This document shows, one piece after another, positions 8,617-12,452 of a DNA stretch of 64,000 bases. The DNA comes from Streptomyces griseus subsp. griseus (lineage in GTDB: Bacteria; Actinomycetota; Actinomycetes; Streptomycetales; Streptomycetaceae). The notes below the pieces were generated by a model, which did not search any database, was not told the DNA's origin, and was given only the letters and a program-made list of their open reading frames with translations. Location of the stretch: assembly GCF_003610995.1 (NCBI RefSeq), contig NZ_CP032543.1, positions 1,054,001 through 1,118,000 on the forward strand. The letters run 5' to 3'. The translations under genes were made by a program, and so were the position numbers. Each line of letters starts with the position of its first letter. Within the stretch, counting starts at the first letter, position 1.

Positions 8617-8645
8617 ATGGGGGGTCTTGCCGCAAGACCCCCCAT
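8617..8645. promoter_or_regulatory. Rifamycin-associated element (RAE)-like palindrome upstream of rox
   Basis: Two perfect 14-bp arms (left arm ATGGGGGGTCTTGC) flank one central C. On the minus strand the core reads CTTGCGGCAAG with G-rich/C-rich flanks, which matches my recollection of the rifamycin-associated element found upstream of rifamycin-inducible resistance genes in actinomycetes. It lies about 80 bp upstream of the monooxygenase start and just downstream of an AT-rich stretch (TTTTAACTTATA), which could be part of the promoter. Confidence 0.8.
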
Positions 8646-8724
8646 ATGCCGCAGAATCGACGGCCGAAGCCGGGTCACGGAGGACGGGCTTCGGGAATTC
8701 GACGTCGACGGAAGCGGAACTGTG

Positions 8725-10164
8725 ATGATCGACGTGATCGTGGCCGGCGGTGGACCGACCGGCCTGATGCTGGCCTGCGAACTGCGGCTGGCCGGGGTGC
8801 GGACCGTCGTACTGGAGAAGCTGGCCGAGCCGACCCGGGAGACCCGGGGGCGCGGTCTGCATGTGCGGAGCGTCGAGGTGATGGACCAGCGCGGGCTGCT
8901 GGACCGGTTCCTCGCGGTGAGCGAGACGTTCCAGGTCGGCGGCTTCTTCGGGGGCATCCAGAAGCCGTGGCCGGACCGGCTGGACACGGCGCACCCGTAC
9001 GGCCTCTCCACGCTCCAGCCGGTCACCGAGCGGCTGCTCCGCGAGCGGGCCGCCGAGCTCGGGGCCGAGCTCCGGCCCGGCTGCGAGGTGGCCGGGGTCA
9101 GCCAGTCCGCCGACGAGGAGGCGGTGACCGTCGTGCTGACGGACGGGGCGCGGCTGCGCTCGCGCTACCTCGTCGGGTGCGACGGGGGCCGCAGCGTGGT
9201 GCGCAAGGAGGCGGGCATCGCCTTTCCCGGTGAGCCCGCCACGGTCGAGACGCTGCTCGGTGACATGGAGATCGCCGAGGACCCGGAGGTGGTCGCCGCC
9301 GTCGTGGCGGAGGTCCGCAAGACCCAGCTGCGGTTCGGCACCATCCCCAACGGGGACGGGACGCACCGCGTCATCGTGCCCGCCGCCGGGGTCTCCGAGG
9401 GCCGGGCGGCCGCGCCGACCCTGGAGGAGTTCAAGGAGCGGCTGCGGGCGCTCGCGGGTACGGACCTCGGCGTCCACTCACCCCGCTGGCTCTCCCGGTT
9501 CGGGGACGCCTCCCGGCAGGCCGAGCGGTACCGGGTGGGGCGGGTGCTGCTGGCCGGGGACGCCGCGCACATCCACCCGCCGACCGGTGGGCAGGGGCTC
9601 AACCTCGGGGTGCAGGACGCGTTCAACCTCGGGTGGAAGCTGGCCGCCGAGGTCAACGGATGGGCGCCGGAAGGGCTGTTGGACAGCTACCAGACCGAAC
9701 GGCACCCGGTGGGCGCCCGCGTGCTGGACAACACCCGCGCGCAGATCACGCTGCTGGGGACGAGTCCGGGGGCGACCGCGCTGCGGGAGCTGTTCGCGAG
9801 GCTGCTGGACTTCGAGGAGGTGAACGCGTACATGACCGGCATGATCACCGCCGTGGACATCCGCTACGACCTCGGCGAGGGCCACGAGCTGCTCGGCCGG
9901 CGACTGCGGGACGTGCGGCTTGAGCGGGGTGGCCGCCTCTACGAGCTGATGCACAGGGGCCACGGCCTGCTCCTCGACGGGACCGGCGCGCTGTCGGTGG
10001 CGGGCTGGGCGGACCGGGTCGACCACGTAGTCGACCCGGCGGAGGAGCTGGACGCGCCCGCCGTGCTGCTGCGGCCGGACGGGCATGTGGCGTGGGTGGG
10101 CGAGGAGCAGGGGGAGCTGGCCGGCGCGCTGTCCCGGTGGTTCGGAGCGCCGGCAGGGGGGTGA
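8725..10164 (+). CDS. rox: Rifamycin monooxygenase (Rox-type FAD-dependent class A)
   Basis: The 479-residue flavoprotein hydroxylase has an FAD-binding [17 protein letters not shown] near the N-terminus. The DG motif is [14 protein letters not shown], and the GD motif is [19 protein letters not shown]. The segments [16 protein letters not shown] and [14 protein letters not shown] strongly resemble Rox enzymes, which hydroxylate the rifamycin naphthoquinone and open the ansa ring. The upstream RAE-like palindrome and the following HelR-like gene support this over a generic PheA/TfdB hydroxylase. The ATG at 8725 (MIDVIVAGG) is the family start; an adjacent GTG at 8722 is possible. Substrate specificity is inferred. 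Confidence 0.85.
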
Positions 10165-10286
10165 ACCGGCTGGGCCTGCCTGGCTACGGCCCCCGGCACC
10201 GGTGGGGCGAACCGGCCGGACCCGCACCGCCCCCACCACCCACCACCCACCACGCCGACACTCCGGAACGGAACGGAACGAACGCC

Positions 10287-12452
10287 GTGAACCCCCTCCC
10301 CACCAGCGCATTCCACCTCCCCGACCGCCTCTCCCCCAAGGCCGACCCGGCCCTGATCGCCGCCGACGAGCAGCACTTCGCGGCCATCGGCCGCACCCTG
10401 GACGAGTCGATCGCGGAGCTGACCGGCCGCCTCGACGCCGAGCGCCGGGCACCCGGCGGCACGGGTCGGCAGGCGATGGACCGGGATGCCGAGATCCACC
10501 GGCTCACCGCCCGCCTGCGCACCCTGCGCCGCTTCGGCCTCGATCTGTGCCTCGGGCGCATGGTCGCCGAGGACGGCTCCGGCCCCGTCTACGTCGGCCG
10601 GCTCGGCCTCACCGACCGCGAGGGCCGCCGGCTGCTGGTCGACTGGCGCTCCCCCGCCGCCGAGCCCTTCTTCGGCGCCACCCACGCCCACCCGATGGGC
10701 CTGACGAGCCGCCGCCGCTACCGCTGGACGGGCGGCCGGATCAGCGACTACTGGGACGAGGTGTTCGCCCCGGACGCCTTCGCCGGGCATGCCGCACTCG
10801 ACGACCAGTCCGCGTTCATCGCGAGCCTGGGCTCCAACCGGTCGGAGCGGATGCGGGACGTGCTCGGCACCATCCAAGCCGACCAGGACGCCATCATCCG
10901 CGCGAGCTCCCGGGGCGCGCTCGTGGTGGACGGCGGCCCAGGGACGGGAAAGACGGTCGTCGCCCTGCACCGCTCCGCCTACCTCCTGTACGCCGACCCG
11001 CGCCTCGCCCACCGCAGGGGCGGCGTCCTGTTCGTCGGGCCGTCCCGGCCCTACCTCGGGTACGTCGCCGATGTCCTGCCGAGCCTCGGGGAGGAGGGCG
11101 TCCGGACGTGCACCCTGCGGGACCTGGTGGAGGAGGGCGCCACGGCGGCGGCCGAGGCCGACCCGGAGGTGGCCCGGCTGAAGGCGTCGGCGGAGCTGGT
11201 GCGGGCGGTCGAGGCGGCCGTCCGGTTCTACGAGGAGCCGCCCACCGAAACCCTGACGGTCACCACGCCCTGGTCCGGTCTCCGGCTCACCGCCGCCGAC
11301 TGGGCCGTGGCGTTCGAGGCGGCCGGACCCGGCGCCGTACACAACGAGGCACGTGACCAGGTCTGGGAGGAGCTGCTCACGCTGCTGGTGGAGAAGCACG
11401 ACGGTGATGACGTCTCCCCGGATCTCCTCCGCAAGGCGCTCGGGCAGGACAGGGAGCTGGCCGCCGTCTTCGACCGGGCGTGGCCGCTGCTGGACGCGGC
11501 CGAGCTCGTCGGGGACCTGTGGTCGGTCCCCGCCTACCTCCGCATGGCCGCCCCCTGGCTCACCCGGGACGAGGTGCGGCTGTTGCAGCGCGCGGACCCG
11601 CAGGCCTGGACGGTCTCCGATCTGCCGGTCCTGGACGCGGCGCGGCAGCGGGTCGGCGACCCGGAGGCGTGGCGGCGCAGACGTCGGCAGGAGGCGGCCG
11701 TGGCCGCCGAACGCGCGGGCATGGCCCAGGTCATCGACGCTATCCTCGCGGACGAGACCCTGGTCGACGCCGATGTGGACAGCGAGGGCGCGCTGGTGAT
11801 GCTGCGCGGCGAGGACATGAAGAACACCCTGGTCGACCCGGCCGCTTCCACCGGCACCGAACCGGACCGGCTGGCGGGGCCGTTCGCGCACATCGTCGTG
11901 GACGAGGCGCAGGAGCTGACCGACGCCGAGTGGCAGATGCTGCTGGCTCGGTGCCCGTCGCGAAGCTTCACCATCGTCGGGGACCGCGCCCAGGCCCGGC
12001 ACGGGTTCAGCGAGCCGTGGCGGGAGCGGCTGGAGCGGGTCGGTCTCGACCGGGTCGCTCTGGCCTCCCTGACCGTCAACTACCGGACGCCGGAGGAGGT
12101 CATGGCGGAGGCCGAGCCGGTGATCCGGGCCGTGCTGCCGGACGCCAATGTGCCGACGTCGATCCGTTCCGGCGGTCGGCCCGTCGTGCACGGGCACGTG
12201 GGCGACCTGGCGTCGGTCCTGGACACCTGGCTCGCCGCGCACGCGGAGGGGATCGCCTGTGTCATCGGCGATCCGACGTTCCGGGGGACGTCCCGGGTGC
12301 GGTCACTGACGCCTGAGCTGTCGAAGGGCCTCGAATTCGATCTGGTGGTGCTCGTCGGCCCGGAGGCGTTCGGTGAGGGCGTCGAGGGGGCGGTCGACCG
12401 GTACGTGGCGATGACGCGGGCGACCCAGGAGCTCGTCGTCCTGACGGGCTGA
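10287..12452 (+). CDS. helR: HelR/HelD-like RNA polymerase-associated helicase-like protein
   Basis: The 721-residue SF1-like ATPase has an N-terminal charged, probably coiled-coil arm (about residues 20-75) of the kind that enters the RNA polymerase secondary channel. Walker A is GGPGTGKTVVALHRS (about 210), Walker B is HIVVDEAQELTDAEW, and there are C-terminal helicase motifs TVNYRTPEE, SKGLEFDLVVL and YVAMTRATQELVV. HelR displaces rifamycins from RNA polymerase; adjacency to rox and the RAE favours HelR over general HelD. The GTG at 10287 follows repeated GGAACG. A GTG overlapping the rox stop (10161) would add a low-complexity Pro/His segment and is less likely. Confidence 0.83.
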   Translation: MNPLPTSAFHLPDRLSPKADPALIAADEQHFAAIGRTLDESIAELTGRLDAERRAPGGTGRQAMDRDAEIHRLTARLRTLRRFGLDLCLGRMVAEDGSGPVYVGRLGLTDREGRRLLVDWRSPAAEPFFGATHAHPMGLTSRRRYRWTGGRISDYWDEVFAPDAFAGHAALDDQSAFIASLGSNRSERMRDVLGTIQADQDAIIRASSRGALVVDGGPGTGKTVVALHRSAYLLYADPRLAHRRGGVLFVGPSRPYLGYVADVLPSLGEEGVRTCTLRDLVEEGATAAAEADPEVARLKASAELVRAVEAAVRFYEEPPTETLTVTTPWSGLRLTAADWAVAFEAAGPGAVHNEARDQVWEELLTLLVEKHDGDDVSPDLLRKALGQDRELAAVFDRAWPLLDAAELVGDLWSVPAYLRMAAPWLTRDEVRLLQRADPQAWTVSDLPVLDAARQRVGDPEAWRRRRRQEAAVAAERAGMAQVIDAILADETLVDADVDSEGALVMLRGEDMKNTLVDPAASTGTEPDRLAGPFAHIVVDEAQELTDAEWQMLLARCPSRSFTIVGDRAQARHGFSEPWRERLERVGLDRVALASLTVNYRTPEEVMAEAEPVIRAVLPDANVPTSIRSGGRPVVHGHVGDLASVLDTWLAAHAEGIACVIGDPTFRGTSRVRSLTPELSKGLEFDLVVLVGPEAFGEGVEGAVDRYVAMTRATQELVVLTG

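Follow-up and report, generated by a model that had tools for sequence, protein, structure and literature searches.

The DNA analysed here is a stretch of 64,000 nt from Streptomyces griseus subsp. griseus (contig NZ_CP032543.1, positions 1,054,001 to 1,118,000; hereafter the window), in which rox, a rifampin monooxygenase gene, and helR, which encodes an RNA polymerase-protecting ATPase of the HelD family, stand in tandem behind one rifamycin-associated element (RAE). Proteins of the Rox family destroy rifamycin, and those of the HelR family free the polymerase. On balance, we consider it probable that rox and helR form a single operon transcribed from this RAE, and that in the RAE two overlapping promoters, placed back to back, share their middle. 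The evidence comes from two -10-like hexamers, one on each side of the palindrome at a fixed distance from its centre.

A single RAE precedes rox and helR

The original prediction had described a Rox-type monooxygenase followed 122 bp later by a HelR/HelD-like protein, and both proteins indeed exceeded curated NCBIfam cut-offs. The start of rox, read from the sequence, is likely ATG 8725, or else GTG 8722; the listed open reading frame (ORF) from 8617 begins within the palindrome, and the start was placed downstream of it. helR begins with GTG 10287. The window HelR, of the Streptomyces type, remained below the cut-offs of the other HelR/HelD models (434 bits of 1100 for NF041258 and 397 of 1051 for NF041465); in a comparison aimed at the PCh-loop region of class II HelD, its alignment to M. 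smegmatis HelD covers 27-719.

8617..8645, no strand: RAE palindrome, 14+1+14, perfect (palindrome search)
8725..10164, + strand: rox, rifampin monooxygenase (curated equivalog NF033145, 815 bits, cut-off 800; solved relative 5vqb, 711 bits, full-length match)
10165..10286, + strand: rox-helR gap, 122 bp; no RAE, promoter-like or terminator-like sites found
10287..12452, + strand: helR, RNA polymerase-protecting HelD-family ATPase (curated model NF041254, 1256 bits, cut-off 750; solved mycobacterial HelD 6yxu, 352 bits)

The perfect palindrome predicted before rox is present at 8617-8645, where about 0.006 palindromes of the 14+1+14 kind would be expected by chance in 64 kb of the window's composition. 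A RAE is recognised as a palindrome of about 19 bp ahead of a gene for rifamycin resistance, and that is what we found here; the core consensus was matched across genomes. The exact GGKCTTGCNGCAAGMCC occurs once in the 7.24-Mb genome, as the window palindrome. The looser CTTGCNGCAAG has one further match in the genome, at G000:C1:1775717-1775727, which lacks the G/C arms and is not a RAE. With a 77-position RAE profile the window element scored 105 at 8631(+), and all other positions of the 64 kb, on both strands, scored negative; the best score in the rox-helR gap was -88, in agreement with the earlier claim that the gap holds no second RAE.

A promoter of helR's own, inside rox or in the gap and free of RAE control, seems improbable to us. 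The gap is 122 bp long, and in some relatives helR follows the RAE directly, so that the family does not depend on reading through rox. The gap, however, carries no RAE-like site, and neither a promoter nor a terminator, between the genes or elsewhere in the span, came up in a consensus scan of 8430-12600; the scan is weak for Streptomyces and allowed only 16-18-bp spacers, and therefore also missed the RAE's own hexamers. An Rfam scan returned a single sub-threshold match, within helR, which we took as chance.

Conserved hexamers on both sides of the palindrome

We aligned 152 RAEs without gaps on the palindrome centre: 69 linked to helR, 14 linked to rox, 68 class-level elements and that of the window. 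The class-level set was drawn from other genera of the class to which the window belongs, and 68 of its 70 loci were kept after a flank-length filter had dropped two. Orientation followed the linked gene in the helR and rox sets and the sense hexamer in the class set. The palindrome was present in 43 of the 103 genera sampled, the window's included. Downstream of the 70 class loci, assigned by E-value and not by curated cut-off, lay genes for HelR/HelD (31), Rox (15), proteins with an EryCIII-like C-terminal domain (glycosyltransferase; 6), PPDK_N (rph-like; 5) and Arr (4). ABC transporter matches were also seen in two of these 70 downstream ORFs (L104-L173), a possible case of RAE-linked transport.

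Beyond the searched +/-8 positions, the strongest columns of the class set were A at -26, T at -22, A at -21 and A at +22 (each 99%), and T at +26 (97%). These positions belong to -10-like hexamers that start, on either side, at a distance of 21 bp from the centre and read TANNNT in the antisense direction and NANNNT, mostly CANAAT, in the sense direction. At offset 21, each of the two hexamers was present in 69/69 helR, 14/14 rox and 66/68 class elements (149/151), and in the window as well. At the other offsets between 15 and 27, antisense TANNNT was found in 0 or 1 elements, and sense NANNNT in up to 23/69 (offset 24) and 16/69 (offset 23) helR, at most 11/68 class and at most 3/14 rox elements. 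A distance of 19 bp separates each hexamer from a TTGCSG of the core, where both strands carry TTG; this TTG is invariant in the aligned sets, although its positions belonged to the search pattern. Taken together, the conserved RAE unit spans about 70-90 bp, so that of the "RAE-like palindrome" of the original prediction the palindrome stands as part of a larger unit with two mirror-image -10-like hexamers. This arrangement suggests that a RAE consists of two back-to-back promoters with overlapping -35 hexamers and 19-bp spacers. In the window, its parts are as follows.

8605..8657, + strand: composite RAE core, antisense -10 to sense -10 (pattern match G000:C1:1062605-1062657; profile score 105 at 8631)
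8627..8632, + strand: predicted sense -35, TTGCCG (from the sequence; TTG invariant in aligned sets)
8652..8657, + strand: predicted sense -10, CAGAAT, behind a 19-bp spacer; transcript start predicted near 8664 (NANNNT offset counts)
8630..8635, - strand: predicted antisense -35, TTGCGG (from the sequence)
8605..8610, - strand: predicted antisense -10, TAAGTT, behind a 19-bp spacer; transcript start predicted near 8598 (TANNNT offset counts)

A composite pattern requiring both hexamers and leaving positions -1, 0 and +1 free matched 99 of 246 class genomes, with zero matches in every row of the reversed control, while the bare palindrome pattern matched 102 of 246 with one or two control matches in some rows. 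The composite pattern was built after part of the same genomes had been seen, so these figures speak for its specificity and are not an independent discovery. Two other readings of the conserved blocks were considered. A TATAGC block as the sense -10 was rejected as the main reading because C stands at its sixth position (97% in the class set) and because A-26 and A-25 would be left unexplained. A leader peptide after the sense start was dropped; the conserved GTG is the start of rgt, a gene discussed below, or its remains.

RAEs with a broken palindrome

The composite pattern also recovered RAEs in which the palindrome is broken. Eighty named HelR loci were compared, the best 80 of 543, and a strict palindrome lies upstream of helR in 69 of them. 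Nine of the other 11 keep the composite, with profile scores of 98-115 and altered cores (six of them CTTGCCACAAG); it is missing at L049 and at L051, whose contig ends 380 bases before helR. Among six rox loci lacking the strict palindrome, four keep the composite (scores 85-106), and it was not found within the 500 bases fetched at L087 and L103. Symmetry is thus not strictly required, while the outward hexamers are kept. The core change CTTGCCACAAG recurs in eight loci (L013, L030, L050, L072, L078, L081, L100 and L102), and turns the sense -35 into TTGCCA, closer to TTGACA, with the antisense -35 becoming less like it. A 2021 paper mentions HelR-group genes without an identifiable RAE (PMC8655204), and broken cores may explain some of these.

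These loci bear on the main rival to a promoter pair, namely that the RAE is the operator of a rifamycin-responsive protein and that the hexamers are promoters under its control, or outer parts of the operator. We regard this as possible, at rather less than even odds. The length of the palindrome and the conservation of the G/C arms beyond the -35 hexamers favour such a protein, and two papers suggest an unidentified factor (PMC10719064, PMC12802891). On the other side, a core change breaks the dyad in 13 of the 17 loci without a strict palindrome and the rest of the composite is kept, and what the two sides share is mainly the A and T essential in a -10; no candidate protein was identified, though none was searched for.

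An inverted repeat upstream of the RAE

To the left of the antisense -10 we found an inverted repeat whose right arm most often ends at -33, seven bases from the hexamer, which is the predicted antisense start (9/13 rox, 40/51 helR and 11/22 class stems). Stems of at least 7 were present in 13/14 rox, 51/69 helR and 22/68 class elements (86/151); shuffled sequences gave them in 2.5-2.7% and shifted windows in 0-8.8% of cases. When left arms were exchanged between elements of the class set, stems fell to 5.4%, which indicates that the arms there change together. In elements that have the stem, 4.0-5.0 of the eight bases on its left side are A, compared with a background of 1.3, which corresponds to a U-tract in the antisense direction. 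Repeat and A-tract together have the layout of a terminator for leftward transcripts predicted to start in the RAE. A class example chosen for its clear hairpin, L133, folds at -14.4 kcal/mol (z -3.36).

8573..8598, - strand: imperfect inverted repeat, arms 8573-8580 and 8590-8598, lacking a U-tract in the window; a terminator-like hairpin in many relatives

A model of competing promoters

In the model that we propose, the sense promoter (TTGCSG-19 bp-CANAAT) would drive the rox-helR operon, and the antisense promoter (TTGCSG-19 bp-TANNNT) would, in many relatives, lead straight into the terminator-like hairpin and yield only a tiny RNA. The overlap of the -35 hexamers would allow RNA polymerase on one promoter at a time, making the two mutually exclusive, and the antisense -10, nearer to consensus, would keep the sense promoter low. 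Polymerase blocked by rifampicin would then upset the competition, and Rox and HelR would be made together. We infer operon transcription, antisense transcription and induction alike from the DNA. That competition between polymerases is the rifampicin sensor is put forward tentatively. Slightly more doubtful is the stricter form of the model, in which polymerase alone would make the RAE a rifamycin sensor, its two divergent promoters would be of the sigma70 type with a common -35 region, and the antisense promoter, with its built-in terminator, would yield nothing useful and do nothing but compete; in the window lineage, whose terminator lacks a U-tract, it could also read into the adjacent tetR-MFS efflux operon.

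Several observations weigh against the promoter pair. The aligned rows share ancestry, and the class count of sense hexamers is biased because class elements were oriented by that hexamer. Moreover, a spacer of 19 bp is long for sigma70. The G/C arms are conserved outside the -35 hexamers (G-9, C+9), more than two -35s need, and fit a protein operator. As to the repeat, exchange of left arms leaves 34% of the helR and 71% of the rox stems, so that within Streptomyces it is largely a matter of sequence conservation, and 46 of the 68 class elements have no stem of 7. The eight bases to the right of the stem hold 1.9-2.4 T, a count for which there is no background figure. In the window and in its closest relative, G055, the hairpin is imperfect and the A-tract (the antisense U-tract) is absent; the window fold (-12.9 kcal/mol, z -0.69) is no better than those of shuffles, and the folds of L020 (z -1.45) and L026 (z -1.41) are weak. 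In Bacillus subtilis, promoters brought into steric interference lost induction (PMC12802891); with this loss, and with the convergent layout of its promoters, the B. subtilis model is not simply transferable to the RAE. Finally, according to a review of HelD, mycobacteria have a further sense promoter, P1, which lies about 20 bp ahead of the RAE (PMC10719064). A -10 for P1 is not conserved in our alignment (TANNNT at -27 in 16/68 class, 7/69 helR and 1/14 rox elements), and the window does have TANNNT there, TAACTT at 8604-8609, so that sense transcription may here begin directly ahead of the palindrome.

The reported P1 start and the TAACTT of the window would also suit a RAE that acts as RNA, as a hairpin or attenuator within a longer leader whose start lies upstream, as would the two potential hairpins in sense order. 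We consider this very improbable: the commonest class bases at -6/+6 are G/A, which do not pair, no conserved sense -10 was found upstream, and the side on which the A-tract lies fits a leftward terminator.

The rox-helR pair among RAE-linked gene orders

In a sample of 150 genomes of the same genus, the window genome included, HelR exceeded the curated cut-off in 98 and Rox in 92. Judged by eye from the listed coordinates, rox stands directly before helR in the window genome only, with genes at contig ends, for instance in G007 and G016, not judgeable; in G015 the two genes lie about 4 kb apart. In 47 of the 69 HelR loci with a strict palindrome the spacer is shorter than 1.2 kb, and in the other 22 a long slot separates RAE from helR. 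An rgt-like gene, matching in one frame over 396 or more of 403 residues, fills 21 of these slots; the remaining one, that of L020 (Streptomyces anulatus NRRL B-2873), contains rox. Three of the rgt-like proteins were scored, and their best family was NF000354 Rgt with 496-576 bits; with a cut-off of 800, we call them Rgt-like. Comparison of gene order, suggested in the original prediction, thus returned RAE-rox-helR once among the best 80 of 543 loci. The tandem under one element is real, yet it is not peculiar to rox, since 21 of the 80 loci read RAE-rgt-helR. Seen against these gene orders, the window pair is an unusual form of an arrangement that recurs, with RAE, inactivating gene and helR in that order.

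Some side observations concern the distribution of these genes. At L034 (7171-8592), a RAE-rgt-helR unit is followed by a rox that runs convergently to it behind a separate RAE, giving three resistance genes and two elements. HelR relatives were found on 25 of 72,556 plasmid records, mostly large Streptomyces plasmids, 24 of them covering at least 80% of the protein. Four of these 25 records are predicted to be mobilizable.

History of the site and flanking genes

The flanks of the pair, which we take to be gdpd-plsC-mfs-tetR on one side and akr-argH-argG on the other, are common to relatives; Pfam supports TetR, MFS and the aldo/keto reductase, and the name argH presumably fits. The pair had been placed between a core MFS/TetR operon and the argH region: tetR is near-core, being matched in 351 of 392 genomes, but an aldo/keto reductase gene (12475-13506, - strand) separates helR from argH. 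Just upstream of tetR lies an inverted repeat, TGAGAC-N6-GTCTCA (window 8455-8472), with similar sequence in relatives; it is probably the TetR operator, in which case the MFS operon would have a control of its own. More speculatively, given the missing antisense U-tract, an antisense transcript from the RAE could enter the tetR-MFS operon with a 163-nt leader (window 8435-8598).

At this site G055 reads RAE-helR, and its helR and mfs are 92% and 98% identical to those of the window. The next 20 relatives, taken by tetR, have helR at the site in 11 cases and no helR, rox or rgt in 9; rox is present in none. L039 has RAE-rgt-helR and L020 RAE-rox-helR at the same site. (L018/L213, L026/L209 and L033/L211 are each probably one record.) Among relatives the site therefore occurs empty, as RAE-helR, as RAE-rgt-helR and as RAE-rox-helR, which implies that a RAE-helR slot has been filled, exchanged or emptied at one locus. 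By eye, the shared sequence breaks just past the composite RAE and returns a few tens of bases before helR. The window and L020 Rox proteins are sisters (support 95/88, in a 23-row tree with 16 of 20 inner branches open), and a fresh independent insertion of rox in the window is accordingly not favoured; compared with two fresh insertions, the better fit is a shared RAE-rox-helR ancestor followed by losses, or else transfer. The idea of an inserted resistance cassette is supported as regards the site, which is empty in 9 of the 20 relatives that follow G055.

Some spacers also preserve traces of earlier content. With the rgt coding sequence as sole reference, rgt remains were detected in 17 of the 47 RAE-helR spacers, above all 517 control scores, namely in 17 of the 24 spacers of at least 100 nt and in none of the 23 shorter ones. 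A first test, with whole slots as reference, had given 36/47, was too generous and was replaced. In L060, rgt has an internal deletion. Of the rox leaders, 1 of 14 (L086) carries rgt remains; the leaders of L089, L091 and L097, alike by eye, do not exceed controls in this test, and that of the window has no rgt remains (score 24, 23 for the reversed sequence). In the lineages with rgt remains, RAE-rgt-helR is probably the older order, with rgt later eroded.

Comparison with known systems

Rox, HelR, the RAE and the control of each gene by a RAE are already known; the rox-helR tandem behind one RAE is a new variant. For the mirrored promoter architecture and the rgt fossils we found no description in the accessible parts of the open-licence literature, a scope outside which the primary RAE papers lie, and priority is not claimed. 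A 2026 paper describes rifamycin sensing via the RAE in actinobacteria as still to be elucidated (PMC12802891). If the RAE is a mutually exclusive promoter pair, RNA polymerase itself could be the sensor. With rgt, rox or nothing in it, the slot between RAE and helR illustrates how inactivation of a drug comes under the same element as protection of its target.

The closest arrangements are the RAE-rgt-helR units, which like the window have one RAE, an inactivating enzyme first and helR second; they carry an Rgt-like glycosyltransferase where the window has a monooxygenase, and are commoner than the rox form. S. venezuelae has RAE-controlled rox and helR of the same enzyme and HelR families, each with a RAE upstream; according to the review these were two hits of one RAE search, whereas in the window one RAE precedes both genes in tandem (PMC10719064).

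The helD/pps alarm of B. subtilis likewise has a sense and an antisense promoter upstream of the HelD gene, with antisense spacers of 19 bp as in the composite, and the interplay of its promoters can sense rifampicin (PMC12802891). Its promoters are convergent, within 39 bp including both starts, and were established by experiment, whereas those of the RAE are predicted and placed back to back with overlapping -35s (PMC12802891); the RAE hexamers point outward, so the layout is divergent and not of the B. subtilis type.

In M. smegmatis and M. abscessus, the RAE of HelD/HelR is reported to overlap the -35 of the sense promoter, in agreement with the sense half of the composite; a sense P1 is reported there, whereas the composite alignment has no conserved -10 for it (PMC10719064). 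The window HelR does not reach the cut-offs of the other HelR/HelD models, NF041258 and NF041465. Among the M. smegmatis genes induced by rifampicin are the rox homologue MSMEG_2252, that of the helicase MSMEG_2174 and arr genes (PMC6529629), a joint induction that fits common control.

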